This document shows, one piece after another, positions 7,277-64,000 of a DNA stretch of 64,000 nt; positions within the stretch are counted from its first letter, which is position 1; each line of letters starts with the position of its first letter. The DNA is taken from the NCBI RefSeq assembly GCF_005871205.1, contig NZ_SWKM01000011.1:868001-932000 (forward strand), given 5' to 3'. This stretch comes from Marinobacter alexandrii. GTDB lineage: Bacteria; Pseudomonadota; Gammaproteobacteria; Pseudomonadales; Oleiphilaceae. Position numbers and translations under genes: made by a program. The notes below the pieces were generated by a model. That model was given only the letters and a program-made list of their open reading frames with translations. It was not told the origin of the DNA and made no database searches.

Positions 7277-8968
7277 ATGAATGCAACGAATTCAGAGCGT
7301 GGTTGGCAGCCGCCGCTGATCAGCCGCATCAGCAGTCTTTTGGTACTGGCTTTGTTCGCGTTGGCGGTAATACTGCCGGGGTTTGCCGTGGCCGGGCTTG
7401 TGGTGGCGGCGGTTGTTACTTTGGCGGGTTGGTGGTTTAGCCGCAGCCGAGCGGTTGGCGACGAAGCGCCGAGTAACTCCGCAGTGGTCCAGGGTAACGA
7501 GGTGCTGGACATATCGGAGGATCAGCCGGTCGGCTCGGGCCAGGCAGGGCGGATTGCCACGGAGCATAATGAACTGCTGGCCAGCATGCGAGGTGCCTTG
7601 TCGGACCTGCGCCATCATGCAGTGCAGGTGGCGGTGCAATCGGCACGTTTACGCAAACTCACCAGCGAAGCCCAGCAGAGCGCTACCAAACAGGAAGAAG
7701 TCTCCCAACTGATTGCCCAGTCTAGCGGTGAGGGTGCCACGGCACTGGAGGACATTACCCAGCGCACCGGATCGGTGTCGGAGCTGAATTCCCGCAATCT
7801 TGATGGGGTGCGCGAATCCAATCAGGCCTTGTCCCAGGTGGCGGAGCGTATTCGCCAGGTTAACGACCAGCTTCAGAACTTCCGCGAGACCGTCGCCGGG
7901 CTGAGTGAGAGTGCCGGTAAAATTGGTAAGATTTTGGAGTTGGTGCAGGGTTTCTCGGATCAGACTAACCTGCTGGCGCTGAATGCGGCCATTGAGGCAG
8001 CACGGGCCGGGGAGGCTGGTCGTGGCTTCGCGGTAGTGGCAGATGAAGTCCGGCAACTGGCTCAGAAAATTGCATCGGCGACCGGCGACGTGCATCAGAT
8101 CATCAGCGACATGGACACCCGGGTCGGTCGCACCGAGAAGGACACAGAGCAGTTGCTTGAGCAAACCGATCAGGCTCGGGAAGAGGTGACCTCGACCGCC
8201 TCCCAGTTCGACGACATGCTGCAGTACATCGAGCAGGCCCACGCGGAGCTTCTATCCATCACCTCGTCGGTGGAGGAAGTCAGTATTACCAACCGGCAGG
8301 TGCACGAACACGGCAACGAGATCCATCAGCTTGGCCGCGAGTTGGCAAAGGAGATTGCCGAATCAGACACCTACTCCGAGCAACTGCGCAAAGCCACAGA
8401 GGCCTCCATGGAGTTGCTGGCCCGCTACCGGATCGGCCAGGGCGCCTTTGAGGAAATCCTGGAGGCACGCCAGACTTTGGCTGCTGAATTCGAGCAGCGG
8501 CTTACTGAGTTGGCCCGACAGGGCGTGGACATATTTGATCACCGATATGAACCGGTGCCGAATACCTCACCACAAAAATACCGGACCGGGTTTGTTGATC
8601 GTTTTAAGAAAGAGTTCCAGGATCTGACAGATCAGGGTAAGGAACGCTTTGCTGGCACGGTATACAGTCTGTTGGTGGACGTTAAAGGCTATATCCCTGT
8701 GCACCACAGGGCCACGTCGCAACCGGTCACCGGTGACCCGGAAAAAGACCTCCTCTACAGCCGTGATCAGCGGCTCTACAACAGCAACGAGACTGAAATA
8801 CGAAGGTCCAGCCACACGGAGCGGTTTCTCTTGCAAACTTACATTCGGGATACCGGGGAGATTCTTAACGACCTGTCGATCCCTGTGTATGTGAACGGCA
8901 AGCACTGGGGTGCAGTGATCATGGGCTTTAATCCGGACCTGTTGCTGGCGGGTGAGAGCAGAAGTTGA
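7277..8968 (+). CDS. Chemoreceptor with C-terminal cytoplasmic sensor domain
   Basis: 563 residues. Two N-terminal hydrophobic helices (about 15-55) form a membrane hairpin, and the MCP signalling coiled coil follows (about 90-375) with tip [37 protein letters not shown] further domain of about 160 residues comes after the signalling domain. It contains [39 protein letters not shown] and a final [19 protein letters not shown]. That pattern is typical of Cache-like sensors usually found N-terminal to MCPs. Here it must lie in the cytoplasm, so it probably reads an internal metabolite. AGAGGACAC lies upstream of the ATG, and a terminator follows the gene. Confidence 0.85.
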
Positions 8969-8992
8969 CGGACAAGTGCAGGTATTGCTCCT

Positions 8993-9030
8993 GGGCCACG
9001 CCTTGTGAGAGTGTGGCCCCTTTGTTTTTA
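8993..9030 (+). terminator. Intrinsic terminator of the chemoreceptor gene
   Basis: GGGCCAC (8993-8999) pairs with GTGGCCC (9013-9019) and is followed by a T-rich run (CCTTTGTTTTT). It lies 25 bases after the chemoreceptor stop and before the next ribosome-binding site. Confidence 0.75.
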
Positions 9031-9049
9031 TACAGCCGGGGAGAGAAGA

Positions 9050-9466
9050 ATGAATGCCAAGCTTAAGAAGTCTGTAGTCATTTCTGTAGTCGCTGGGTTT
9101 TCAATGCAGCTTGTCGCCTGTGGCACGATCCTTTACCCGGAGAGAAAGGGGCAGTCCGCTGGCCACCTGGACCCGGCCGTTGTTGTTTTGGATGGCATCG
9201 GCTTGCTGTTCTTCCTGGTGCCCGGGGTTATCGCTTTCGCGGTTGATTTCAGCAATGGCACCATCTATCTGCCAGGCGGGGTGGCATCGGTTGATTCTAA
9301 AGAAGTGAATGCCATACAGATCTCGGGTGAGGTAACCAACGAGAAGATCGAGCAGGCTATCTTCGAGCAAACAGGGGAGAAGGTCAGTCTGGACGACGAA
9401 GGCGTTCAATCGCGCGAAGGGACGACAACCCTGAGTGCGCTGAATAGGGAAGTCAGGTTTCTTTAA
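9050..9466 (+). CDS. Predicted lipoprotein with membrane helix
   Basis: 138 residues. The signal peptide ends in the lipobox LVAC (Cys at about residue 25), so the mature protein is probably lipid-anchored. The segment CGTILYPERKGQ...LDGIGLLFFLVPGVIAFAVDFSNGTIYLP, with a hydrophobic helix in the middle, recalls small YceK/YidQ-like lipoproteins. The C-terminal half is soluble (SGEVTNEKIEQAIFEQTGEKVSLDD). GGGGAGAGAAGA precedes the ATG at 9050. The function is unknown. The stand-alone position after a terminator suggests its own promoter or readthrough. Confidence 0.6.
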   Translation: MNAKLKKSVVISVVAGFSMQLVACGTILYPERKGQSAGHLDPAVVVLDGIGLLFFLVPGVIAFAVDFSNGTIYLPGGVASVDSKEVNAIQISGEVTNEKIEQAIFEQTGEKVSLDDEGVQSREGTTTLSALNREVRFL

Positions 9467-9527
9467 CTTGCTTTGGTCATCTGTCGCGGCGCTTGGTTTG
9501 CAACCGCAACGGAACGCGAGTTTCGGC

Positions 9528-10337
9528 CTAGTCCGGCGTGGAAAGGTCTGAGAGATCTGGCTCGCTGAGCGCCTGGATCATTTCATCGGGGTAGGTGCCT
9601 CTGTAATGCTGTGCAAGCGTGCCATCCCGTTTCATGTTATCGAGGGTGTCTTGCCAGAGCTCAACCCTGGCATCCTCGGTATCCAGTGACATGGCAATGT
9701 ACAGGTATCTGACAGAGGTGATGTAGGCCAGTTCGACATCGTCTGCCGAAAATGCCGAGTCGGCAAACAACGGCAGGCGGCCTATGTCACTGGTTATCCA
9801 GGCATCAACGCGACCGTGCATGAGCATATCCAGGCATTGCGCAGGCCGGGTGGGTTGTTCCAGGTTGGTGAATCCCAGAGCCAACAGCGATTCCCCGCCA
9901 GAGCCTCCCCGATACGCACAGATGCCCTTTAGCTTGCGGGCATCGTCTAGTGTCTCTATTGCAATGCCGTCTTCACGACGTACAAAAAAACCGCTGGTGA
10001 TGCGCTTGATCGGACCGACCCATTTAAACTGGTCTTCCCGAAGTTCTGATCGGGCGGTTTCAAACAGTGCAACGTTGGACTCTTTTTGAGCCACTCTGTA
10101 TCCCCGAGCCCAGGGCAGTATGATAATCTCCCCAGGCTCACCAGCCCGTCTCATCAATTCACGGACAAGCTCAGCAGTAGCACCGGTTACACGGCCGTTT
10201 TCATCAAGGTATTCACCGGGGGGCGAGTGCTCCGTTATTACCTTCATCGGTTCACCCCAGAGTTGGGAACTGGTCATTCCGATGAGAAGAAGCACTCCCG
10301 CCCGTACTATTTTTCCTGCACGATAATCCCAAGCCAT
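9528..10337 (-). CDS. Periplasmic family 3 solute-binding protein
   Basis: 269 residues with a signal peptide (VLLLIGMTSSQLWGE). The fold is that of amino-acid-type (family 3) binding proteins: MKVITEHSPPGEYLDENGRVTGATAELVRELMRRAG at the start, LPWARGYRVAQ, and RVDAWITSDIG in the second lobe. The glycine-aspartate pair usual for binding amino acids is not obvious. Many such solo proteins in marine bacteria have no transporter partner, and none is adjacent here. It may feed a distant ABC permease or a sensor. The ligand is unknown. Confidence 0.8.
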   Translation of the reverse strand: MAWDYRAGKIVRAGVLLLIGMTSSQLWGEPMKVITEHSPPGEYLDENGRVTGATAELVRELMRRAGEPGEIIILPWARGYRVAQKESNVALFETARSELREDQFKWVGPIKRITSGFFVRREDGIAIETLDDARKLKGICAYRGGSGGESLLALGFTNLEQPTRPAQCLDMLMHGRVDAWITSDIGRLPLFADSAFSADDVELAYITSVRYLYIAMSLDTEDARVELWQDTLDNMKRDGTLAQHYRGTYPDEMIQALSEPDLSDLSTPD

Positions 10338-10490
10338 TCCTAATTCCTATGTCCCGAAAACGAGCGAGCGATCAACAATAACCCGCACCTGAGCTGCTTG
10401 AAAATAGCGAGCCGGAAAAAACTTGTCTGCAAAAAAGAAGTAAAACCTTTACGGATTAATCCCTTGGACTTCGGCGATCGGGCGGTGTCG

Positions 10491-11069
10491 TTAATGCCTG
10501 ATGTCGTCCAGCTTCAGCAGTTCTTGCAACATGCTATAGCTCAGCCCCCAGATGCAGTAATCCTGAAATCGGCAGCAGGGCATATTCAAGGTGCCTAGGG
10601 GCGTTCGCCAAGGCAGTCTGCTCTGGTTCTCTTCTGCGGCAAGGTGGGTCAGGGGAACCCACACCACTCGCTGGACTTCGTGGTTTAGCGAGACGCTCTG
10701 CGGGCCCAGCCACTCGTACACATAGGGCGTGACCACCATCGGGCGCCAGCGGCTGTGGTGGCGGGTAATCAGGTCAGACAGTCGAGCCTGGAAGCGGCCA
10801 TGGTGAATCAGGTCGACGCCGGTTTCCTCGAGGGTTTCCCGTTCGGCAGCCGCCCGGGTTGTGGCATCCTCGGGCTGCAGTCGGCCTCCCGGGAACGCCA
10901 TGTCCCCGGACCAGGGATCGCCTTCGCGGTGAGCCCGTTGGATAAACAGCAACTCCGTTTCACCGGCCCCAGCTTGTCGGTAGATCAACGCCACGGAGGC
11001 GCGGCTCAGGCGCCGCCGGAGCGGTAGCTTCTTGGGCCGCAAGGTGCTGGCCCAGTGTTCGGTTGCCAC
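10491..11069 (-). CDS. Nudix hydrolase, CoA pyrophosphatase (NudL/YeaB) type
   Basis: 192 residues. It has the full Nudix box GGRLQPEDATTRAAAERETLEETGV (about residues 66-90), with the metal-binding REtxEE core. It also has the NudL/CoAse-specific upstream motif RAHREGDPWSGDMAFPGG. Such enzymes cleave CoA and its derivatives to 3',5'-ADP and acyl-phosphopantetheine in the cytoplasm. The start is a GTG at 11069 with AAAGGACAG upstream. No functional partners adjoin it. Confidence 0.85.
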   Translation of the reverse strand: MATEHWASTLRPKKLPLRRRLSRASVALIYRQAGAGETELLFIQRAHREGDPWSGDMAFPGGRLQPEDATTRAAAERETLEETGVDLIHHGRFQARLSDLITRHHSRWRPMVVTPYVYEWLGPQSVSLNHEVQRVVWVPLTHLAAEENQSRLPWRTPLGTLNMPCCRFQDYCIWGLSYSMLQELLKLDDIRH

Positions 11070-11407
11070 GGTGAGCTGTCCTTTGGGGGCTGGTGGTTAC
11101 CAGACTATCCAATCACTTGGCAGGCGTCCAATGACTCTGCAACTGCCCGAGCAAGGGCGAGCCCACGCCCTGTTCACCGAGGAAGCTCAGCGCGATCGAC
11201 AGGAACTGCTGGATCATGGCGGGGCCAACGCTACCGAGCGGGCTAGTGCTACCCTGAGGGCGCCGCGGCGGTTGCTATGTACTAAGATTTGGCTTCAATA
11301 AGTTACAAAGTCATCAAGGACATCGGTAGCTAGGTAAACTAAAGTTCATCAGTTGGGGCTTTTTCCTGCGGTGCGTTTGCAATCATTTAGATCTTTTGGT
11401 GAATCTG
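11070..11407. other. Intergenic stretch without a convincing gene
   Basis: About 340 bases between divergent genes. On the minus strand about 11,124-11,277 there is an open stretch reading roughly PLGSVGPAMIQQFLSIALS, ending at a TGA. It could be a decayed C-terminal fragment, but no ribosome-binding site or family match supports a gene. The right part is AT-richer and probably carries the promoter of the Sel1 lipoprotein. Confidence 0.4.
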
Positions 11408-12202
11408 ATGTATCGATTGCTTGTAATCATTATAGGCGGATTGCTCATTGCTGGTTGCGGCAGTTTAAAAACCAGTGACGTTCTGAGTCGTACCGGTGAC
11501 GCGCTGAGCAAAATCGGGCAAAAAAGCCCTACCGATGATGGTGACCAGGAAATTAAACCGCTTTTTGATCAACCCTATATTGATCCGTTAACGGAGTATC
11601 TCCAGCGTTACGCAGAAGATCCGTCCCGCTCGGCTCAGCTCGGGCAGGTGAGACAGGAGCGTGAACGCCGCTGCGCTGCCGTCGCCCGGCGGTATGATAT
11701 GGATGAGATTACCGAAGCCAGCTTGGTATTGTACCGTCGTGGCTATAGCTTTTCCTGTCCGCAGGATGTGGCCGCCTACGAAGTGCGGCTCGAAGCGATG
11801 CAGCAGGCGTCAATACCCGCACCGCCGCCAAATAGTGAATCCTTATCCCGTCAACTGAATAACTGCTACTTGCTCACTCAGATTCGCAACTTCAGTGGGG
11901 CCCTGGATACCTGTCGCGGTCCCGCCGAAGCTGGGGCGGTTGGTGCGCAGGTAAGGATGGCGCAGATCCAGAATGCCCTGGGGAATCACGAATCAGCCTA
12001 TCGCTGGGCCCAGCAGGCAGCGCCTGAATCCGGTGAGGCAGCCAATCTGCTAGGTGAAATGTACGCCCAAGGGCTTGGTGTGGCTCAGGATAAGGCGGCG
12101 GCTGCGAAGTGGTTCAGAACCGCTGCCGGGCTAGGTCATGTCGGGGCGAAAAACACTCTCGACAATCTGGTTTCAGCCTCTGCGGGTGACAATGCCGATT
12201 AA
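11408..12202 (+). CDS. Sel1-repeat lipoprotein
   Basis: About 264 residues. The N-terminus MYRLLVIIIGGLLIAGCGSL has a clear lipobox (LIAGC). The ATG at 11408 is preferred, though TTG (11396) and GTG (11399) starts are in frame. The C-terminal 60 residues contain a Sel1/TPR-like unit, GEMYAQGLGVAQDKAAAAKWFRTAAGLGH, preceded by a degenerate unit (MAQIQNALGNHESAYRWAQQA). Such repeats mediate protein contacts in the envelope. Its last 11 bases overlap the start of the GGDEF-EAL gene, so the two are translationally coupled and may act together. Confidence 0.72.
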   Translation: MYRLLVIIIGGLLIAGCGSLKTSDVLSRTGDALSKIGQKSPTDDGDQEIKPLFDQPYIDPLTEYLQRYAEDPSRSAQLGQVRQERERRCAAVARRYDMDEITEASLVLYRRGYSFSCPQDVAAYEVRLEAMQQASIPAPPPNSESLSRQLNNCYLLTQIRNFSGALDTCRGPAEAGAVGAQVRMAQIQNALGNHESAYRWAQQAAPESGEAANLLGEMYAQGLGVAQDKAAAAKWFRTAAGLGHVGAKNTLDNLVSASAGDNAD

Positions 12203-14627
12203 GCCGCTGCAGTGGCCAGTCTTGTCCAGGTGGACACGGCCACCTCTGAGCTTCTGGAAAAGCAACAAAGCCATGCACACTATCATGGGGCTGCTACTCC
12301 TGCTGATTGTGCTTTTTGCGATTGGAATGTTCCTGTTGTCTCACCTGAACCTGGGCTACTCCCAGCAGGCGATGTATGAGTTACGCCGTGATCAGATCCG
12401 GGATGTGTTTTTCACGGGGCTGGCCCGTATTGATGCCCATCAAATTGCTCTGGAGCGCCAAGTGGCGACGCTCGCGACGATCGGCGAAACATTCTACCGG
12501 TTATCGCGGGAACAGCGGGGTTCGCCCAAAGCCCAGCGTCAGTTTCAGGACCAGCTCGAAAAAACACTGCGAAGCCGTCTTGAAAGCGAGGTCGGGGTCT
12601 CCGGTGCGGGTCTCTGGTATCAGCCGGGCATTGTAGCGCCAACCGGTGAACGCTACGCTCCCTACCTGGTTAAGGACGGGGTTGGTGGCGCCAGAATGCA
12701 ATCGCAATCAACCGATTTTAGGCAAACCCGATGGTTTGAGCTGACCTTGGGAATGGACGACGCCCGCAATTCCTCGTCGGGCGTGTCTGTCTACTGGTCA
12801 CCGGTTTACTTTGACATGGCAACGGAGCGCGCTGTTCTCACTCTTTCCCAGCCGATGGTCAGCACTGGGGGTGAGCTGATTGGCGTGGCGACCATCGACT
12901 GGGCTTCGGATCAGGTTGTTGACCTGGTCAGCCGTATGGAAGTCACTCAAAACAGCTTTGCTTTTCTCAATGACCGCAACAACCGAAACCTGTCCAGTCT
13001 CAATCAAAGCGAAGATCCGGTGCTGGAGCAGAAGCTTATCGATGCGATTCTGGCAGCAAACCTTTCCGGAAATGAGCCGGACGTGCGATCAGCATCCGGA
13101 GAGAGCCAAGCCTCTGAATCGCGCCTGCAGACTCGGAAGCTTGAAGTTGATGGTCGGCTCTATGAGCTGTATTACGCGACGACCCCAGCGGGGATGGTCT
13201 ATGGTGCTGGCGTTCCAAAGGATGAGATCGACCGGGTGCTTGAGCCCATGCGCAATACTAATTACCGGATACTGCTGGTTACTGGCTCGATTTTTTTGAT
13301 ATTGAGCCTTTACCTGTTTTATCGGATCACGCAGCTCATGCGCGAATTGCAGGCCTCCTACACAGACGACCTGACGGGCTTGCCCAATCGTGTGCGTCTT
13401 TTGCGAGACCTAAAGGACCGCCAGCACGCCTGCCTAATCTTACTGAATCTGGATCGTTTCAAGGAAATCAACAGCCTGTTTGGAAATGACTGCGGCGATG
13501 CGGTCCTTTTGGCGATGCGCAAGCAGGTGCGCTCGTTTATCCGCACCCATTCTCACCCCTTTGGGCTCGCTCCAGGACTTTATCGTTTGTCAGGTGATGA
13601 ATTTGCACTTCTTGGGCCCGCTGTTGCCGAGTCCCGGGTGCGTGCTTTTACCAGTGAATTGATCGAATTTCTCTGTGCGCAAGTGGTGACCTGGCAGCAG
13701 CAGGCGTTAACTCTGGATTCGAGTGCAGGTATTGCTTTTCAGAAGGAGAGTGCGGGGGACGCCGGACCCGACCGTTTGCTCAACCAGGCAACCATTGCTG
13801 TTTTGCAGGCCCGGAACCAGATGCGCCGGTACCTGTTTTACGATCAAAGCCAGGAAGTTGAAAAAGGCTATGAGAAAAATCTCTATTGGGCGCGGCGCTT
13901 GAAAAAGGCGATTGAGACTGACGCATTGCGTCCGCACTTCCAGCCGATTCATGACAACCGCCAGGGCACGCATACCAAGTACGAGTGTCTGGTGAGGATG
14001 GAGGATGCCGAGCATGGCGTAATCGCCGCCGGGCAGTTCATTGGTGTGGCCAATAAACTCCGGCTGAATCGGCAGATCACCCGGATCATGGTGGAAAAGT
14101 CTTTCGCCGTTTTTGCCACGCAGCCCCACGAGTTTTCCATCAATTTGTCCTATATGGACATTATTGACGCGGAAACTCTAGCTCTGATTCTTGAGCATCT
14201 TCAGGCGAGTAATGTCGGCGAGCGGGTCATCTTCGAGATTCTCGAATCCGATGGCATCGGAAATTACGTCGACGTCCTGAATTTTATTGAGAAAGTGAAA
14301 TCCTTCGGGTGCCGGATCGCCATTGATGACTTTGGCACCGGGTATTCCAATTTTTCTCATCTGCTCAAGCTGAACGTGGATTTCATCAAGATAGACGGTA
14401 GCCTGATTCGTTACTTGGCGCAGGACCACACGGCGTTTCTTGTGACAAAGGGGATTGTGCAATTCGCCCGGAGCATGGGCATCAAAACAGTGGCAGAGTT
14501 CGTGCACAGTGAAGCGGTGCAGGAACGTGTATTGGAGCTGGGCATTGATTTCTCGCAGGGAGAGTATTTCGGTATGCCTGCACCGGAGTTGTTAAGTCAA
14601 AAGGGGCAAAGGGTGCTAGCCAAATAA
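12192..14627 (+). CDS. Membrane GGDEF-EAL protein (c-di-GMP turnover)
   Basis: About 811 residues. A membrane helix (about 28-50) is followed by a large periplasmic region of dCache type (about 50-355, with GAGLWYQPGIVAPTGERYAPY and TLSQPMVSTGGELIGVATIDW), then a second helix (about 360-380). A GGDEF domain with the variant signature SGDEF and a C-terminal EAL domain complete it. The EAL site keeps the expected ECL (first Glu), INLS Asn, FEILES Glu, IDDFGTGYS, FIKIDG Lys and AEF Glu residues, so phosphodiesterase activity is likely; cyclase activity is uncertain. There is no RxxD inhibitory site before SGDEF. The start at 12192 overlaps the Sel1 lipoprotein gene. Confidence 0.85.
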   Translation: MPIKPLQWPVLSRWTRPPLSFWKSNKAMHTIMGLLLLLIVLFAIGMFLLSHLNLGYSQQAMYELRRDQIRDVFFTGLARIDAHQIALERQVATLATIGETFYRLSREQRGSPKAQRQFQDQLEKTLRSRLESEVGVSGAGLWYQPGIVAPTGERYAPYLVKDGVGGARMQSQSTDFRQTRWFELTLGMDDARNSSSGVSVYWSPVYFDMATERAVLTLSQPMVSTGGELIGVATIDWASDQVVDLVSRMEVTQNSFAFLNDRNNRNLSSLNQSEDPVLEQKLIDAILAANLSGNEPDVRSASGESQASESRLQTRKLEVDGRLYELYYATTPAGMVYGAGVPKDEIDRVLEPMRNTNYRILLVTGSIFLILSLYLFYRITQLMRELQASYTDDLTGLPNRVRLLRDLKDRQHACLILLNLDRFKEINSLFGNDCGDAVLLAMRKQVRSFIRTHSHPFGLAPGLYRLSGDEFALLGPAVAESRVRAFTSELIEFLCAQVVTWQQQALTLDSSAGIAFQKESAGDAGPDRLLNQATIAVLQARNQMRRYLFYDQSQEVEKGYEKNLYWARRLKKAIETDALRPHFQPIHDNRQGTHTKYECLVRMEDAEHGVIAAGQFIGVANKLRLNRQITRIMVEKSFAVFATQPHEFSINLSYMDIIDAETLALILEHLQASNVGERVIFEILESDGIGNYVDVLNFIEKVKSFGCRIAIDDFGTGYSNFSHLLKLNVDFIKIDGSLIRYLAQDHTAFLVTKGIVQFARSMGIKTVAEFVHSEAVQERVLELGIDFSQGEYFGMPAPELLSQKGQRVLAK

Positions 14628-57439: not shown

Positions 57440-58462
57440 CTACGAAGCTTGTTTGGCCTGATAAAACTGACGGATGGCAGTCAGTAATCGGTCCACATCC
57501 TGGCGGTTAACATCACGATGGGTGACAAAGCGAAGCGGATTGCCGGCGGTGATCAGGATGCCTTGTTCAGCCAGGTGATCGCGCAAGTCCGTCGCCTGGC
57601 CAACCCGGCAGCGGGCATAGACGATGTTGGTTTGTGTGCTAGCGAGATCAACTTCCAGCTGGCGAATTTCGGCAAGACCGGCGGTCAGCGCCTGGGCGTT
57701 GTCGTGGTCCTCTTGCAGCCGTCGCGGCCCCTGGCCGAGTGCGATCTTGCCGGCTGCGGCAAGGATGCCGGCCTGGCGCATGCCGCCACCCACCATCTTG
57801 CGCAGCCGTCTGGCGCGTTTAATGAAGTCCTCTGAACCCAACAGCAGTGAGCCCACTGGAGCGCCGAGACCTTTCGATAAACAAACACTGACCGAGTGAT
57901 AGTGCCGGGTGATCTCCGTGATGTCGCAATGGCAAGCGACCGCTGCGTTGAATACCCGGGCACCGTCCAGGTGCAGTTGCAGCCCATGCTCATCACAGAA
58001 GGCACGCGCCTGGCGTTGGTAGTCCAGGGAAAGCACCTTGCCGCCGATGGTATTTTCCAGTGACAGCAGGCGGGTCATGGCGAAATGGAAATCGTCGGCC
58101 TTTATCGCGGCGCGGGCCTTGTCCAGATTGATGCTGCCGTCCGGCTCATTCTCGATGGGCTGGGGTTGAACGCTCCCCAGCACGGCAGCGCCGCCGCCCT
58201 CGTAGCGATAGTTGTGGGCGGCCTGACCGCACAGGTACTCATCGCCCCGGCCACAGTGGCTCATGATTGCCAGCAGGTTGGCCTGGGTACCGCTGGCGGT
58301 GAATAGAGCCGCCTCAAAGCCGAGCCGGTCGGCGGCGTAAGCCTCGAGGCTGTTGACGGTGGGATCATCTCCGTAGACATCGTCGCCTACCTCCGCGCGC
58401 GCCATTGCCTCGCGCATCTCCGGGGTCGGTTTGGTAACGGTATCACTACGGAAATCGATCAA
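57440..58462 (-). CDS. ltaE: Low-specificity L-threonine aldolase
   Basis: 340 residues of the beta-eliminating-lyase fold. MIDFRSDTVTKPTPEMREAMARAEVGDDVYGDDP is the standard N-terminus. The PLP lysine is in VCLSKGLGAPVGSLLLGS (about residue 197), with the aspartate in 'LHLDGARVFNAAV'. It cleaves threonine or allo-threonine to glycine and acetaldehyde in the cytoplasm. It is on the same strand as the allophanate hydrolase gene, 50 bases downstream, but is functionally unrelated to guanidine or urea use. Confidence 0.93.
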   Translation of the reverse strand: MIDFRSDTVTKPTPEMREAMARAEVGDDVYGDDPTVNSLEAYAADRLGFEAALFTASGTQANLLAIMSHCGRGDEYLCGQAAHNYRYEGGGAAVLGSVQPQPIENEPDGSINLDKARAAIKADDFHFAMTRLLSLENTIGGKVLSLDYQRQARAFCDEHGLQLHLDGARVFNAAVACHCDITEITRHYHSVSVCLSKGLGAPVGSLLLGSEDFIKRARRLRKMVGGGMRQAGILAAAGKIALGQGPRRLQEDHDNAQALTAGLAEIRQLEVDLASTQTNIVYARCRVGQATDLRDHLAEQGILITAGNPLRFVTHRDVNRQDVDRLLTAIRQFYQAKQAS

Positions 58463-58513: not shown

Positions 58514-60307
58514 TTAGATAGTGGCCAGATAGCCCCTCCAGCCTCCGAGCGATGTTATCTCCTTCGCGCCTTCCAGGCCAATTGGTTCGCAGATAAAGCC
58601 GCTGACCCAGCGGCCGTCAGCCAACTCGACTTTGCCAATGCCCAGAGGAGCGGGGATGCCGGCGACGAAGCTACCGAACTGGTCGGCGGGCAGGCGCCAG
58701 ATTTCCACCGGGAGCGGGCTGCCCGCCTCGGTGTCGCGGATCAGACCTGGGCGGAATGGCGGGCCACCGTCAAGCAAGTACATGCGATAGGCGGGTGAGG
58801 TTTCGGTTGTTTGAACCAGGGTGCCTTTGCGCTCAGTCAGCTGATGATTCAGGGGCAGCCCCGAAAGGTGCGCGCCACAAACCAGCACGTCGATCGTGCC
58901 TTCTGTTGCTTCAAATTCCGGGCTATCGAGCAGATCGGTCAGGGCGCCCACCTGATCGACCGCTTGCGGATGCAGGCGCGCTGCCAGAGACAGCAGGGCT
59001 TCGTCCTGGAATGCATCGGCAAACAGGGTGCAACCGAGGGGCAGGCCGTTGGCGAGGTACCCGCCCGGCACGGCGACTGCACTGTAATCCAGAAGATTCA
59101 TGAAGTTGGTGTAGATGCCCAGGCGACTGTTCCGGCTGATGGGTTCGGCCTCCAGTTCGGCAAGGGTGTAAATGCCGGGAGTGGTGGGCGTTACCATCAC
59201 ATCAATCTGGTCCATCATCGTGTCAGCGGACCGCTTGAGAGCCTGCAGCCGGTACTGGGCTGCAAACGCATCGGCAGCACTGGGTGCGGAGCCCTGGCTG
59301 ATGATGTCGTACGTGACTGGCAGTAGCGCCTCCGGCTGTTTGTCGATCAGCGGCTGGGTGGCGAGGTAGCGCTCAGTCACCCAGGGGCCTTCATAAAGCA
59401 GCCGGGCGGCCTCCAGGAAGGGGGCAAAGTCGACCTCGATGCGTTCGCCACCGAGGGCTTCCAGAGCCACAAGACTGCGTTCGAACAGTTTCTTAACGTC
59501 GTCGTTATCGAAAACGAGTTGATGATCGGCAGGCACCCCGAATCGGAAGTTTTCCGGTAATGGCGTGCGTCCAGTGGGTGGCGTTTTCTGCCAGGAGTCT
59601 TCGGCATCGGGCGCTGAGGCGACCGCCAGGACATCACGGGCCTGATCGGCCGAGCGGGCAAAGATAGACACGCAATCCAGGCTCTGGCACGCAGGCACCA
59701 CACCACGAACGCTAATACGGCCGAGTGTGGGTTTGAGACCGATCAGGTTGTTAAACGCTGCCGGCACCCGCCCGGAACCTGCGGTATCGGTGCCCAGCGA
59801 GAAACTTGCAAGGCCTAGAGCGACCGCGACCGCTGAGCCTGCGGACGATCCGCCAGAAACATAGTCAGGGTTGATGCTGTTGCGACAGGCGCCCCATGGC
59901 TCCGGCGATCGGGTGCCCACCAGACCGGTGGCAAACTGGTCCAGGTTGGTTTTTCCCAGTGGTATGGCTCCGGCCTCAACAAGAGCTTCAACGACGGCGG
60001 CGTGGCTCTCAGGCTGATAGCGGAAGGCTTCACAGGCGGCAGTGGTGGGCATGCCAGCGACGTCGATGTTGTCTTTCACTGCGAACGGGATACCGTAAAG
60101 CGGCAGGTCCTCTGGTTCGCACTGCTGCAGGCGCTCCAGATACGGCGCCAACTCGGCCTCCGTGGCGCGATGAATCCAGATGTTGTGGTGATCGAACTCG
60201 CTGGCGCGTTGCAGCAGGTGCGCCACCACGCTGGCGGGCGTTTGTTCGCCGCTCAGGTAGGCGTTGCGCAGTGAGGTTAGGTCGAGATTGATGGTCGTGG
60301 TTTTCAC
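58514..60307 (-). CDS. atzF: Allophanate hydrolase (AtzF type)
   Basis: 597 residues from a GTG at 60307 (TGAGG upstream), the usual length. The N-terminal amidase-signature domain has the Lys (FAVKDNIDVAG), cis-Ser (GGSSAGSAVAV) and nucleophile Ser (GTDTAGSGRVPAA). The C-terminal domain (about 440-597, VLVCGAHLSGLPLNHQL and AYRMYLLDGGPPFRPGLI) completes the two-step reaction of AtzF/DUR1,2: allophanate to two CO2 and two NH3. It follows the ATPase gene by seven bases in the riboswitch-controlled unit. The urea or guanidine carboxylase that makes its substrate is not in the window. Confidence 0.95.
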   Translation of the reverse strand: MKTTTINLDLTSLRNAYLSGEQTPASVVAHLLQRASEFDHHNIWIHRATEAELAPYLERLQQCEPEDLPLYGIPFAVKDNIDVAGMPTTAACEAFRYQPESHAAVVEALVEAGAIPLGKTNLDQFATGLVGTRSPEPWGACRNSINPDYVSGGSSAGSAVAVALGLASFSLGTDTAGSGRVPAAFNNLIGLKPTLGRISVRGVVPACQSLDCVSIFARSADQARDVLAVASAPDAEDSWQKTPPTGRTPLPENFRFGVPADHQLVFDNDDVKKLFERSLVALEALGGERIEVDFAPFLEAARLLYEGPWVTERYLATQPLIDKQPEALLPVTYDIISQGSAPSAADAFAAQYRLQALKRSADTMMDQIDVMVTPTTPGIYTLAELEAEPISRNSRLGIYTNFMNLLDYSAVAVPGGYLANGLPLGCTLFADAFQDEALLSLAARLHPQAVDQVGALTDLLDSPEFEATEGTIDVLVCGAHLSGLPLNHQLTERKGTLVQTTETSPAYRMYLLDGGPPFRPGLIRDTEAGSPLPVEIWRLPADQFGSFVAGIPAPLGIGKVELADGRWVSGFICEPIGLEGAKEITSLGGWRGYLATI

Positions 60308-60314
60308 ATTGGCC

Positions 60315-61100
60315 TCACGCTGACAGTTGTCGGGATGTTTCTGAAACGGATGATTCGATGCTCTGGTAAAGCTGTGGGTCGGATTGGCCGATGGGCAAGT
60401 CGTAGGAGATAGTCGCGCCATAGGCTTCCGGGTTCTGGGGGTCGTTGCGGATTTTGTCGAAGACCAACAGCCGGGTACCGAGATAAAAACCTTCATGGAG
60501 ATCGTGGGTGACCATAAAGATTGTCGTGCCCGATTCGCGCCAGAGCTTAAGAATCAGGTCGTGCATGTCACCGCGAATGCCGGGATCCAGTGCGCCGAAG
60601 GGTTCATCGAGCAACAGAATGCGCGGCTTCATGATGAACGACTGGGCGATGGCCAGCCGCTGCTGCATGCCGCCCGATAACTCATGGGGCCATTTGTTGA
60701 GAGCGTGGCCCAACCCGACGGCCTCCAGCATGGCATCGACCTGGGCGAGGGCATCTTTTCGAGCCTTGCCAAAGAGCTTGCCGAGCAGGGGTTTTTGCTC
60801 AAGTTCCAGTCCCAGCAACACGTTCTCGCGCACGGTCAGGTGAGGGAACACGGAATAGCGCTGGAACACGATGCCGCGATTTCGATCAGGCTGGCCCGGG
60901 AACTGCTCGCCCTGCAGGCTGAGCTCACCGCGCGAGGCTGTCTCCTGCCCCAGCAGCATTTTCAGAAAGGTGGACTTGCCGCAGCCAGAGGCACCGACAA
61001 GCGTACAAAATTCCCCTTCTTTTACTTCGAGATTCAGGTTTTCCAACACAACCTGATCGCCGTATTCCTTCCACAGTTTTTTAACCGAAATAAAGCTCAT
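60315..61100 (-). CDS. ABC transporter ATPase (guanidine/urea-carboxylase-linked)
   Basis: 261 residues from ATG 61100 (AGGAGG six bases upstream; the ATG overlaps the permease stop as TAATG). Walker A GASGCGKST (about residues 36-44), Q-loop VFQRYSVFPHLTV, signature LSGGMQQR and Walker B ILLLDEPFGALD are all intact. It belongs to the NitT/TauT-type ATPases. By position between the permease and AtzF, and under a guanidine riboswitch, its system probably takes up guanidine. It sits at the inner face of the membrane. Confidence 0.9.
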   Translation of the reverse strand: MSFISVKKLWKEYGDQVVLENLNLEVKEGEFCTLVGASGCGKSTFLKMLLGQETASRGELSLQGEQFPGQPDRNRGIVFQRYSVFPHLTVRENVLLGLELEQKPLLGKLFGKARKDALAQVDAMLEAVGLGHALNKWPHELSGGMQQRLAIAQSFIMKPRILLLDEPFGALDPGIRGDMHDLILKLWRESGTTIFMVTHDLHEGFYLGTRLLVFDKIRNDPQNPEAYGATISYDLPIGQSDPQLYQSIESSVSETSRQLSA

Positions 61101-61915
61101 TAGTGGCCTCCTGCGTTGTACCAGGGGAACAGCCGGCGGTTGGTAAAACGCAGGCATTGGTCGATGACTATGGCGAGGATGGTAATCCAGATGACGTAAG
61201 GCAGGATCACGTCCATGGCGAGATAACGCCGCACCAGGAAGATCCGGTAACCCAGCCCCTCGGTTGAGGCAATGGCTTCTGCAGCGATCAGGAACAGCCA
61301 GGCGGGGCCCAGGCTCAGGCGAACGGCGTCGATCAATCGAGGCAGCACTTGGGGCAGAGCCATGCGAGTGATCACCTGCCAGGAGTTGGCACCCAGTGTC
61401 TGGATCTTGATCAGTTGCTCACCGGGCAGTTCACGCACTCGCTGGGCAACATCGCGCATCATGATGGGAGCAGTGCCGATTACGATCAGCATCACTTTGG
61501 AGAGTTCGCCCAGACCAAACACGATAAACAGGATGGGCAGTATCGCCAGTGGAGGCACCATGGAAAGGGCAGACACTAACGGCGCAAGGTTAGCGCGTAC
61601 CAGTGGCAAAACCCCGTTCAGGATGCCGACAAACAGCGCCAGTAATGCGGCGACACCAACGCCAATGCCCAATCGTGCCAGGCTGGCGGTGGTGTCCTGC
61701 CACATCAGGAAGTCGCCGCTGCGTCGATCCTCCTGAAACGCCATGCGGTCGACAGCGGCGGTCATCTGTTCAAGGCCGGGAAGCAGTTTGTCGTTGGGAT
61801 TGTCTGCAAGACGTTCTTGGGAGGCGATGCTGTAGATGAGGGCTATCAGCAGGAAAGGGAGCAAGCCTAGCAGGGTGGCGGAAACCCTTCCGGGATGTCG
61901 GTTGATCTGTCGCAT
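61100..61915 (-). CDS. ABC transporter permease (guanidine/urea-carboxylase-linked)
   Basis: 271 residues from ATG 61915 with GAGGAAA upstream. Six hydrophobic segments are present, and the EAA-like loop reads KIQTLGANSWQVITRMALPQVLPRLIDAVRLSLGPAW (about residues 175-211). It belongs to the NitT/TauT permeases found beside urea carboxylase genes. A guanidine-I riboswitch lies 66 bases before the start codon. The expected binding protein gene is absent between the riboswitch and this gene. Confidence 0.88.
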   Translation of the reverse strand: MRQINRHPGRVSATLLGLLPFLLIALIYSIASQERLADNPNDKLLPGLEQMTAAVDRMAFQEDRRSGDFLMWQDTTASLARLGIGVGVAALLALFVGILNGVLPLVRANLAPLVSALSMVPPLAILPILFIVFGLGELSKVMLIVIGTAPIMMRDVAQRVRELPGEQLIKIQTLGANSWQVITRMALPQVLPRLIDAVRLSLGPAWLFLIAAEAIASTEGLGYRIFLVRRYLAMDVILPYVIWITILAIVIDQCLRFTNRRLFPWYNAGGH

Positions 61916-61980
61916 AAGGCGTTTCCTCTGGTCGCACAACACGGCATGGACATCGCAGACAAGGCAGTCGCTTGCGATTC

Positions 61981-62095
61981 AGTCTCCCGGGCTTTTATCC
62001 CGCCGTGTAACCTCCCAGAGGTCGGTAACTCTCGGACCAGCCACCCGGGCCGATGGTTGATGTCAGCCCGGGCCGGAACCCTAGTCACCCATTGT
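61981..62095 (-). ncRNA. Guanidine-I riboswitch (ykkC)
   Basis: Read on the minus strand, the highly conserved blocks appear in order: CTAGGGTTCCGG (62084-62073), GGCTGGTCCGAGAG (62043-62030), then ACACGGCGGGATAAAAGCCC (62008-61989) followed by GGGAGA. These blocks and the intervening stems are those of the ykkC subtype 1 class, which binds guanidinium and raises expression of the genes downstream. It lies in the leader of the permease-ATPase-atzF unit, about 65 bases from the permease start. Which conformation controls the permease (transcription or translation) is not evident; I saw no obvious terminator stem between it and the gene. Confidence 0.95.
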
Positions 62096-62279: not shown

Positions 62280-63323
62280 TTATTGGCCTCTTTGACTAAG
62301 GAGTGATGCTGCGGCATTCAGAATCTGCGCATGGCTCATGGTGTCCCTGCCGGCACCACCGGCAATGTGCCCCCAGTGCGACTCCAGTACCTGCAGCTCA
62401 GCACCTGGCATTCGTGCGGCGTCAAAAGTGGCATCCTCCGCGGTGAAGTACAGATCGGTGGCGGAGGGCATCACTCTTGTGGGCATGGTGATCGCGGACA
62501 GGGCAGCAGCGTAATCGCCATTAAAGACAGGATTGTCTGAGATATTCCCGCCTTGCCAGGTGGCCAGGACTGAAAGAAGGTCATTGGCGTCCTGGCCCAG
62601 GTGATCCTGCTCCCAGAATGCCAGCAACTCCTCGATTGAGCGGAAGCCCAGCTCGCGCCAGAGGTTTTCACGAAAGAACGCCTGCGAGTAAGCCCAGCCG
62701 GCGTATACCCGGGCAAAGGCTTTGAGCCCACGTGCCGGTAGGGTCTGATAGCGGCCATCCTGAAAAGCGGGATCGCAGGTCAATGCCGCCTTAACGCCCT
62801 CCAGAAACATCCGGTTGTGGGGGTAGCAGCGTGCGGTGCAGCAAGTGGCCAGGACGGCGCCAACCCGCTCCGGGAACAGGCTGCCCCACTGCAGGGCCTG
62901 CATGCCTCCCATAGACCAGCCCATCACCAGAGCCAGACGGGCTTCGCCGAACACCTCGTCCACCAATCGTTTTTGCAAGAGCACGTTGTCGTAAAGACTG
63001 ATCGCCGGGAAATCTGCCCCGGCCTGGGGGCCGTGGGTGTTGGACGGGGAAGAAGATTCCCCCGCGCCCAATAGCGCTGGGATGACGATGCAATACCGAT
63101 CCGGGTCCAGCAGGTTGGCATTGGCGCTCTTTTTGCCCACCCACGGATGATTCCCCACCGCTGCACCACCGTAGTACGTGGGCAGCAGAATCAGGTTGTC
63201 TTTTGGTGCATTCAGCTGGCCAATCTGGTGGTAGTGAAGGCGGGCATTTACCAGTACATCGCCGTTGGCCAGTGGTAGGTCGCCGGCCTGAAAATCACGT
63301 TTAACCCATTGTTCTATAGCCAT
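62280..63323 (-). CDS. MetX-like alpha/beta hydrolase
   Basis: 347 residues of the homoserine/serine O-acetyltransferase-like branch of alpha/beta hydrolases. The N-terminal DGDLPLANGDVLVNARLHYHQIGQ is followed by the nucleophile box MGWSMGGMQALQW (Ser near 138), an Asp in 'PSATDLYF' and a His in 'LESHWGHIAGG'. It lacks the C-terminal lid features typical of methionine-pathway MetX, so another ester or amide substrate is possible. It is divergent from the GlnT-type glutamine synthetase gene and separated from it by an operator-like palindrome, so control may be shared. Confidence 0.78.
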   Translation of the reverse strand: MAIEQWVKRDFQAGDLPLANGDVLVNARLHYHQIGQLNAPKDNLILLPTYYGGAAVGNHPWVGKKSANANLLDPDRYCIVIPALLGAGESSSPSNTHGPQAGADFPAISLYDNVLLQKRLVDEVFGEARLALVMGWSMGGMQALQWGSLFPERVGAVLATCCTARCYPHNRMFLEGVKAALTCDPAFQDGRYQTLPARGLKAFARVYAGWAYSQAFFRENLWRELGFRSIEELLAFWEQDHLGQDANDLLSVLATWQGGNISDNPVFNGDYAAALSAITMPTRVMPSATDLYFTAEDATFDAARMPGAELQVLESHWGHIAGGAGRDTMSHAQILNAAASLLSQRGQ

Positions 63324-63480: not shown

Positions 63481-64000
63481 ATGACTGAATTAACCAACAC
63501 CCAGGCTTTGAAACAGCGACTTGCGGACGCTGGCGTGAAATACGCCATTGCCAGCTACGTGGATATCCACGGGGTAACCAAAGGCAAGTTTGTGCCTGTG
63601 GCTCACCTGGGACAAATGATGGAAGGATCCGAGCTTTATACCGGCGCCGCCCTGGATGGCGTTCCCCAGGACATCTCGGACAACGAAGTAGCGGCCATGC
63701 CCGATGCCGGTGGCCTTGCGGTATGCCCCTGGAATCGACAGCTGGCCTGGTTCCCTGGCAACCTCTATCTCGACGGCAAGCCGTTCGAGGCTTGTTCACG
63801 CAACATTTTCCGCCGTCAGCTCAGCGCCGCAGCCGACATGGGCTACCGCTTTAATCTCGGCATAGAAACCGAATTCTTCCTGTTCCGGGACACCGAAGAC
63901 GGCGGCTTTCAGCCATTGAGTGATCGCGACACGTTAGGCAAACCCTGCTACGACCCGCGCGCGCTGATGGATAACCTGCATATCGTGGACGAGTTGGTTG
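63481..64000 (+). CDS. GlnT-type (type III-like) glutamine synthetase family protein (3' truncated)
   Basis: The first 173 residues are in the window. ATG 63481 has GAGGAGAACGAG upstream. VKYAIASYVDIHGVTKGKFVPVAHLG, then PDAGGLAVCPWNRQLAWFPGNLYLDG and the catalytic-core start GIETEFFLF (Glu ligands) match the GlnT/gamma-glutamylmethylamide-synthetase branch rather than GlnA. The usual substrate is an amine or ammonia plus glutamate. It lies beside nitrogen-scavenging genes. The exact reaction cannot be told from the N-terminal third. Confidence 0.85.
   Translation, partial: MTELTNTQALKQRLADAGVKYAIASYVDIHGVTKGKFVPVAHLGQMMEGSELYTGAALDGVPQDISDNEVAAMPDAGGLAVCPWNRQLAWFPGNLYLDGKPFEACSRNIFRRQLSAAADMGYRFNLGIETEFFLFRDTEDGGFQPLSDRDTLGKPCYDPRALMDNLHIVDELV

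Follow-up and report, generated by a model that had tools for sequence, protein, structure and literature searches.

Two Guanidine-I riboswitches and a probable split guanidine-assimilation regulon in Marinobacter alexandrii

Close to the end of the stretch of Marinobacter alexandrii DNA analyzed here (64,000 nucleotides, in the following the window, which ends at C1:932000), a Guanidine-I riboswitch precedes the genes of a permease, an ATPase, and the allophanate hydrolase AtzF. It is very probable (about 0.93) that the guanidine-assimilation regulon of Marinobacter is split in two, with this operon, operon A, as its downstream half, and that operons A and B stand under two Guanidine-I switches with predicted outputs. 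The pathway is known and complete, and its layout is split and recurrent. Thereby a new route to allophanate, which had been proposed from the window alone, is closed, and a documented split regulon takes its place. Two points are worth keeping, namely that two switches of one class seem to differ in output, and that the gene glnT is associated with the regulon.

Operons A and B and their likely substrate

Operon A consists of the following features (window positions):

61982..62095, minus strand: Guanidine-I riboswitch aptamer A, 5' of the permease gene (RF00442, 86.5 bits, full length)
61100..61915, minus strand: ATP-binding cassette (ABC) transporter permease, putative membrane partner of the binding protein from the upstream operon (PF00528; gene order in relatives)
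60315..61103, minus strand: ABC transporter ATPase (PF00005)
58514..60307, minus strand: allophanate hydrolase AtzF, GTG start (TIGR02713, C-terminal domain PF21986)

The sequence-only reading had described a full ykkC subtype 1 riboswitch 5' of permease, ATPase, and allophanate hydrolase genes on one strand, and the matches to RF00442, PF00528, PF00005, and TIGR02713 bear this out. Aptamer A covers model positions 1-107 of RF00442 (E 4.5e-14), and its 86.5 bits against a gathering score of 63 remove the doubt that the leader might fail the ykkC covariance model; by the whole-aptamer model both copies, A (86.5 bits) and B (81.1 bits), are Guanidine-I (ykkC subtype 1) aptamers. The start codon of the permease gene is most likely ATG 61915, which has CCAGAGGAA 5' of it, and not GTG 61942. 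AtzF, which reaches 772 bits with TIGR02713 (cut-off 511.05), is the sole match above cut-off to this family in a search of its own genome, and its gene follows that of the ATPase after 7 bases, as had been read before.

RF00442 matches the same genome twice, in the window and at C1:939842-939956 (minus strand). The latter, riboswitch B, scores 81.1 bits over model positions 1-107, lies on the same strand as riboswitch A and 9.7 kb upstream of it, and starts 7.8 kb past the window end. It heads operon B, the genes of which are given here with positions in the locus labelled L003:

13545-14285: UAAP1, CgdA/B subunit (TIGR03425, 326 bits, above cut-off)
12889-13617: UAAP2, CgdA/B subunit (TIGR03424, 335 bits, above cut-off)
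9272-12898: carboxylase, 1208 amino acids (TIGR02712, 1874 bits, above cut-off)
8091-9230: periplasmic binding protein (TIGR03427, 498 bits, above cut-off)

At E <= 1e-150, a single carboxylase is matched in this genome, and it lies beyond the window (C1:934774-938397). With TIGR02712, TIGR03425, TIGR03424, and TIGR02713 all above cut-off, the genes of the guanidine carboxylase pathway are present in one genome, and the parts of a guanidine/urea ABC importer are complete as well, TIGR03427 being found in operon B and PF00528 and PF00005 in operon A.

The carboxylase, the two associated proteins, and the binding protein had been called missing, which is right for the operon in the window but not for its surroundings, since all of them are encoded under a second Guanidine-I riboswitch nearby; they looked absent because the window was cut before operon B. 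Likewise, the suggestion that these middle genes had moved elsewhere holds insofar as they are encoded outside operon A, but it is overstated, since the two neighbors are separated only by the genes of TetR, GlnT, and an alpha/beta hydrolase. The search of the genome for the middle genes under a second ykkC element, which the sequence-only reading had advised, thus recovered the full set 9.7 kb upstream, and by the reasoning of that reading itself such a set makes the locus a split operon and not a different route to allophanate. A new carboxylase-free route was rejected, as carboxylase and deiminase are present under the second Guanidine-I riboswitch. That operon A nevertheless belongs to another pathway, in which allophanate arises without carboxylase and deiminase, could be argued from the fact that its genes alone lack the middle steps, and AtzF also uses allophanate from other sources. 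We regard this as highly improbable, as the full carboxylase/deiminase set and a matching binding protein lie 9.7 kb away under the same riboswitch class, all genes stand in one row in unsplit relatives, and the ATPase gene is directly 5' of atzF in 0 of 78 AtzF loci of other genera.

The genes, the two aptamers, and their order are observed, and a split guanidine regulon is what they would encode. Guanidine would be caught in the periplasm by the binding protein from operon B and imported via the permease and ATPase from operon A. The imported guanidine would then be carboxylated by the putative guanidine carboxylase, deiminated to allophanate by the predicted carboxyguanidine deiminase (UAAP1 and UAAP2, CgdA/B), and hydrolyzed by AtzF. 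Guanidine is predicted to bind to both aptamers and to switch both operons on. Enzyme activities and transport are likewise assigned here from sequence.

The NCBIfam labels point to urea instead, since TIGR02712 is named "urea carboxylase" and TIGR03427 "putative urea ABC transporter". However, these names are older than the reassignment to guanidine described in the 2025 review PMC12186494, and two guanidine aptamers and two UAAP proteins are present. Moreover, this review reports that at one active-site residue, given there without a number, guanidine carboxylases carry Asp and urea carboxylases Asn. D707 is the sole alignment column with Asp in the carboxylase of operon B and Asn in all three unlinked Marinobacter carboxylases examined. 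This column is Asp throughout the other Marinobacter loci that have the riboswitch-type gene (51 of 51) and the loci of other genera beside UAAP1 (69 of 69), whereas the yeast urea carboxylase (3va7) has Asn. Thus, the residue is Asp and not Asn as expected for a guanidine carboxylase, with the residue number inferred. Since D707 was matched to the substrate-deciding residue of PMC12186494 in our own analysis, the argument from this column loses some of its weight. From the Asp/Asn contrast, a urea system was judged unlikely, and altogether it is hardly credible that the operon B carboxylase is a urea carboxylase and that the system serves urea.

The region between both operons contains, 3' of the binding protein gene, a TetR gene, glnT in the opposite direction, and an alpha/beta hydrolase gene, followed by riboswitch A. 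The latter two genes begin or lie in the window, where they have the following positions:

62280..63323, minus strand: alpha/beta hydrolase, PRK07581 subfamily, MetX-like (conserved between operons A and B)
63481..64000, plus strand: first part of glnT, type III glutamate--ammonia ligase family, cut at the window end (conserved between operons A and B)
L003 5982-7340 (window 63481 onward): whole glnT gene (TIGR03105, 591.9 bits)

The TetR protein had no match in PADLOC. A ten-pair stem followed by a TTTTCGTTTTC-like sequence (L003 8064-8042) lies between the binding protein gene and the probable start of TetR, although terminators in the scan of this region were at chance level. About 60 nucleotides 5' of aptamer B (e.g., L003 about 14460-14530) are strongly conserved in 49 Marinobacter genomes, with the sequence ACGCAGCGAGA...AATCTGAC, and are perhaps a promoter or operator. 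At the other end, a gene of the low-specificity threonine aldolase family (window 57440-58462, minus strand; 467.7 bits with NCBIfam NF041359, GntG family aldolase, and 462.6 with PRK10534) lies 51 bases 3' of atzF. It was dropped as a member of operon A because it adjoins atzF only in this genome and in G060.

Recurrence of the split layout and association with GlnT

RF00442 matches are found in 52 of 124 genomes of the genus, for which gene order was read by tblastn. The split layout is present in 42 of these 52 genomes, 39 times with both riboswitches on one contig and three times on two contigs. A contiguous operon riboswitch-UAAP1-UAAP2-carboxylase-binding protein-permease-ATPase is found in seven genomes (G010, G028, G044, G081, G092, G113, and G122; cut at a contig end in G092), and three genomes (G011, G012, and G087, the stretch of which ends after the ATPase) have binding protein-permease-ATPase-UAAP1-UAAP2-carboxylase as the sole operon. 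G032 carries the latter form in addition to the split one. The advised comparison with related Marinobacter operons therefore yields a recurrent split (42/52) beside seven contiguous operons. In L201, from another genus of the same family, the operon is contiguous with AtzF last, and in other genera the carboxylase gene is directly 5' of atzF in 70 of 78 AtzF loci. Because of this adjacency elsewhere and the contiguous relatives, the contiguous order looks ancestral and the split would be derived.

Of the 42 split genomes, 38 encode TetR between the halves (a contig break possibly hides it in G017 and G110), 40 encode GlnT, and 39 the hydrolase; the binding protein is present in 41. In G055, the gap is occupied by an EamA-like transporter gene instead, whereas the split locus of G061 (L203) has neither binding protein, TetR, GlnT, nor hydrolase between the halves, and from carboxylase to riboswitch A a reverse-strand open reading frame for a membrane protein (both names read from the translation). 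Two loci of other genera also show two riboswitches or riboswitch pattern matches. L183 of an uncultured gammaproteobacterium has the order riboswitch-binding protein-permease-ATPase-GlnT, then riboswitch-UAAP1-UAAP2-carboxylase-AtzF, and L132 of Pseudomonas guryensis has two riboswitch pattern matches, each 5' of a binding-protein gene.

An intact linked atzF is present in only eight of the 42 split genomes (G000, G015, G048, G049, G054, G055, G060, and G062) and most others carry a distant copy, so that most split genomes encode the final step apart from their guanidine switches. Across all 52 genomes, AtzF above cut-off is linked in 12 and distant in 40, with one genome having both (G032, where the linked AtzF is in the second operon) and one having neither (G092, 82% complete). 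Linked and distant copies are close to mutually exclusive (Fisher p 2.3e-9, relatedness uncorrected), so that the 52 genomes document how an operon gene is dropped where another copy exists. G086 (L070) retains a 55-residue remnant just 3' of the ATPase, matching AtzF 532-586 at 80%, and a distant AtzF is also present. Eight distant loci were opened. Their AtzF shares 45-55% identity with that of the window, three of them (L107, L108, and L110) have a carboxylase next to it, and no riboswitch was found by text pattern.

GlnT at >=76% identity occurs in 41 of the 124 genomes, namely 40 split ones and G087, and the alpha/beta hydrolase at >=62% in 40, namely 39 split ones and G087. Among solved structures, the best relative of GlnT is the glutamate--methylamine ligase 9qur (418 bits), ahead of the type III ligase 7cql (318) and glutamine synthetases (281 and lower). 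In a sample of the order (390 genomes, 16 of them Marinobacter), RF00442 is found outside the genus in 24 of 32 GlnT-bearing genomes vs. 80 of 342 without GlnT (Fisher p 7.8e-9, relatedness uncorrected), and in nine of these 32 GlnT lies <=5 kb from RF00442. Furthermore, GlnT at >=50% is found in five of the 78 AtzF loci of other genera (L117, L119, L126, L175, and L183). GlnT thus recurs beside guanidine loci in several families, which links a gene of the type III glutamine-synthetase family to guanidine loci. GlnT may serve to assimilate the ammonia set free in the pathway, or it may form a different gamma-glutamyl compound. In the open-access literature searched, guanidine, glutamine synthetase, and ykkC were joined only in one Limnospira radiation paper, nor was a type III glutamine synthetase or glnT with a urea carboxylase in this arrangement found in titles and abstract starts of the open-access literature.

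Predicted outputs of leaders A and B

Leader A contains two pairs of complementary segments (window positions):

62015..62021, minus strand: aptamer P2 segment CCUCUGG, complementary to the Shine-Dalgarno region at 61925-61931 (minimum-free-energy fold)
62002..62008, minus strand: aptamer core segment ACACGGC, complementary to GCCGUGU at 61939-61945 (minimum-free-energy fold)
61939..61945, minus strand: linker segment GCCGUGU, second arm of the predicted OFF helix (38/41 distinct A leaders, 0/49 B)
61925..61931, minus strand: permease Shine-Dalgarno region CCAGAGG (minimum-free-energy fold; exact pair with P2 in 37/41 distinct A leaders)

The complementarity is read directly from the DNA, whereas its function is predicted. 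The minimum-free-energy fold of leader A, which contains the CCUCUGG/CCAGAGG and ACACGGC/GCCGUGU pairs, is the predicted OFF state (-81.8 kcal/mol, z -3.37, 1 of 200 shuffles as good). Without guanidine, aptamer segments would thus pair with the linker and the permease Shine-Dalgarno region and block translation. The exact CCTCTGG/CCAGAGG pair is present in 37 of the 41 distinct A-leader genomes, and none of the 41 has a run of five T within the first 75 nucleotides. CCGTGT follows downstream in 39 of the 41 A leaders and in all three leaders read from family f43 of the same order, but in none of 49 B leaders and none of 43 others. The underlying set of 42 A rows counts G015 twice (L039 and L094) and is without G041, the riboswitch of which is unmatched by the text pattern, giving 41 distinct genomes. 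In the fold of leader B, a stem formed from the CCCGGGAGG end of the aptamer is followed by U6, and P2 (CCUUUUCC) is paired with GGAAAAGG 5' of the start codon. In the absence of guanidine, the 3' arm of this aptamer would therefore go into a terminator, and P2 would also pair with the UAAP1 Shine-Dalgarno region. Of 49 B leaders, 41 have the exact CTTTTCC/GGAAAAG pair, 42 the CTCTCG plus T-run motif, and 35 a run of five T. With short P2/P3 stems of the aptamer forced, two in each leader, the mean Shine-Dalgarno accessibility rose from 0.22 to 0.55 in A and from 0.04 to 0.73 in B, at a cost of 15.1 and 8.7 kcal/mol, respectively, with a partial terminator-like stem persisting in B.

The pairing of P2 with the Shine-Dalgarno region was also assessed with 43 distinct P2 arms from Marinobacter and other genera and a target region 45-100 nucleotides downstream. 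Matched partners scored 18.19 vs. 14.19 (standard deviation 0.43) for shuffled partners, with 0 of 5000 shuffles as high, and the 29 arms outside A and B scored 17.79 vs. 14.29, again with 0 of 5000. In two coding-region controls, 3572 and 466 of 5000 shuffles were as high with all arms, and 2258 and 1234 with the 29 arms. Examples are CTCCAGTTGA/TCAACTGGAG in Pseudomonas as well as CCUCUCCUCC/GGAGGAGAGG and CCTCTCCTCC/GGAGGAGAGG in family f43. Ten of 49 riboswitch pattern matches of other genera were dropped, as ACACGG was not in range (L119, L126, L135, L138, L154, L156, L161, L165, L173, and L186), and the Marinobacter loci L113 and L114 were excluded from the other-genus set. When the whole P2 was searched with 25-260 nucleotides open, the best helix fell into the Shine-Dalgarno region in 46 of 49 B leaders, four of four Marinobacter leaders of the binding-protein type, and 25 of 39 leaders of other genera.

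In PMC12186494, Guanidine-I is described as usually a transcriptional ON switch. Leader A without an evident terminator therefore departs from the usual picture, which is no proof of mechanism. The two same-class switches seem to differ in output, since the folds predict a terminator plus Shine-Dalgarno pairing for B, and Shine-Dalgarno pairing without a run of five T for A. We tentatively suggest, at slightly less than even odds, that Marinobacter obtains two outputs from one metabolite and one riboswitch class. The enzymes and the binding protein would stand under a terminator-type, Shine-Dalgarno-pairing leader, and the importer core and AtzF under a purely translational leader, the OFF helix of which invades the conserved ACACGG core of the aptamer. 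This proposal includes that pairing of the P2 hairpin with the Shine-Dalgarno region would be a general output of gammaproteobacterial Guanidine-I, and GlnT a working part of guanidine assimilation.

Several results weigh against this proposal. In the search with the whole P2, only 11 of 41 A leaders had their best helix in the Shine-Dalgarno region, and the remaining ones have a stronger P2 match within the coding sequence. The P2 of leader A scores the same on the Shine-Dalgarno region of leader B as on its own (19 and 19), and the re-pairing test takes the arms as independent with relatedness uncontrolled. A looser terminator test was positive in 26 of 42 A rows (TGTTGTGT), beside 48 of 49 B leaders and 15 of 43 others. 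A promoter and terminator scan of the region gave nine terminators vs. 9.5 in shuffles, i.e., chance level, and no sigma-70-like promoter (0; shuffles 3.1). Both leaders might thus act mainly on transcription, by intrinsic or Rho-dependent termination, with the Shine-Dalgarno complementarity of leader A being incidental; the usual transcriptional mode of the class (PMC12186494) and the 26 positive A rows would agree with this, and Rho sites could be exposed by blocked translation. We consider this unlikely, although not to be dismissed lightly, as all 41 A leaders are without a run of five T, the two complementary blocks are conserved whereas the rest of the A linker is variable, and P2 and Shine-Dalgarno region vary together from lineage to lineage. 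If the outputs differ as proposed, one cell naturally contains two riboswitches of the same class whose expression platforms seem to differ, which would allow a direct comparison of transcriptional and translational control by one aptamer class.

Comparison with known guanidine loci

Neither the split arrangement nor the P2/Shine-Dalgarno pairing was found in titles and abstract starts of the open-access literature; subscription literature was outside this scope, so this is no evidence of their being unpublished. The guanidine carboxylase operons of Pseudomonas, Vreelandella, and enterobacteria have riboswitch class, enzymes, and ABC importer in common with the system described here. In enterobacteria, some of the genes stand under a Guanidine-I and the others under a Guanidine-II switch, and in V. 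boliviensis an internal Guanidine-II switch is present as a second one (PMC12186494, PMC12508155). In contrast, both switches of Marinobacter are Guanidine-I, the cut lies between binding protein and permease, and an oppositely oriented glnT is found between the halves. The unsplit operon of the Marinobacter family (seven genomes; L201) contains the same genes in the order UAAP1-UAAP2-carboxylase-binding protein-permease-ATPase(-AtzF), but has one riboswitch and is without the TetR/GlnT/hydrolase/riboswitch block before the permease.

A similar block is present in family f43 (G494, G255, and G339), where GlnT (77%) is divergent from alpha/beta hydrolase (52-55%)-Guanidine-I-permease-ATPase as in Marinobacter. 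In all three loci read, TetR and/or the binding protein are encoded on the GlnT side, and the leader has CCGTGT and the P2/Shine-Dalgarno pairing like leader A. The permeases of split and unsplit Marinobacter operons are 85-99% identical to that of the window, those of f43 65-66%. We infer from these sequences that a block related to that of f43 was inserted, riboswitch included, at the junction of the binding protein and permease genes. Unlike in Marinobacter, the permease leader of f43 heads an operon that includes UAAP1, UAAP2, and carboxylase too, with a single riboswitch, and AtzF is also part of this operon in the two loci long enough to show it.

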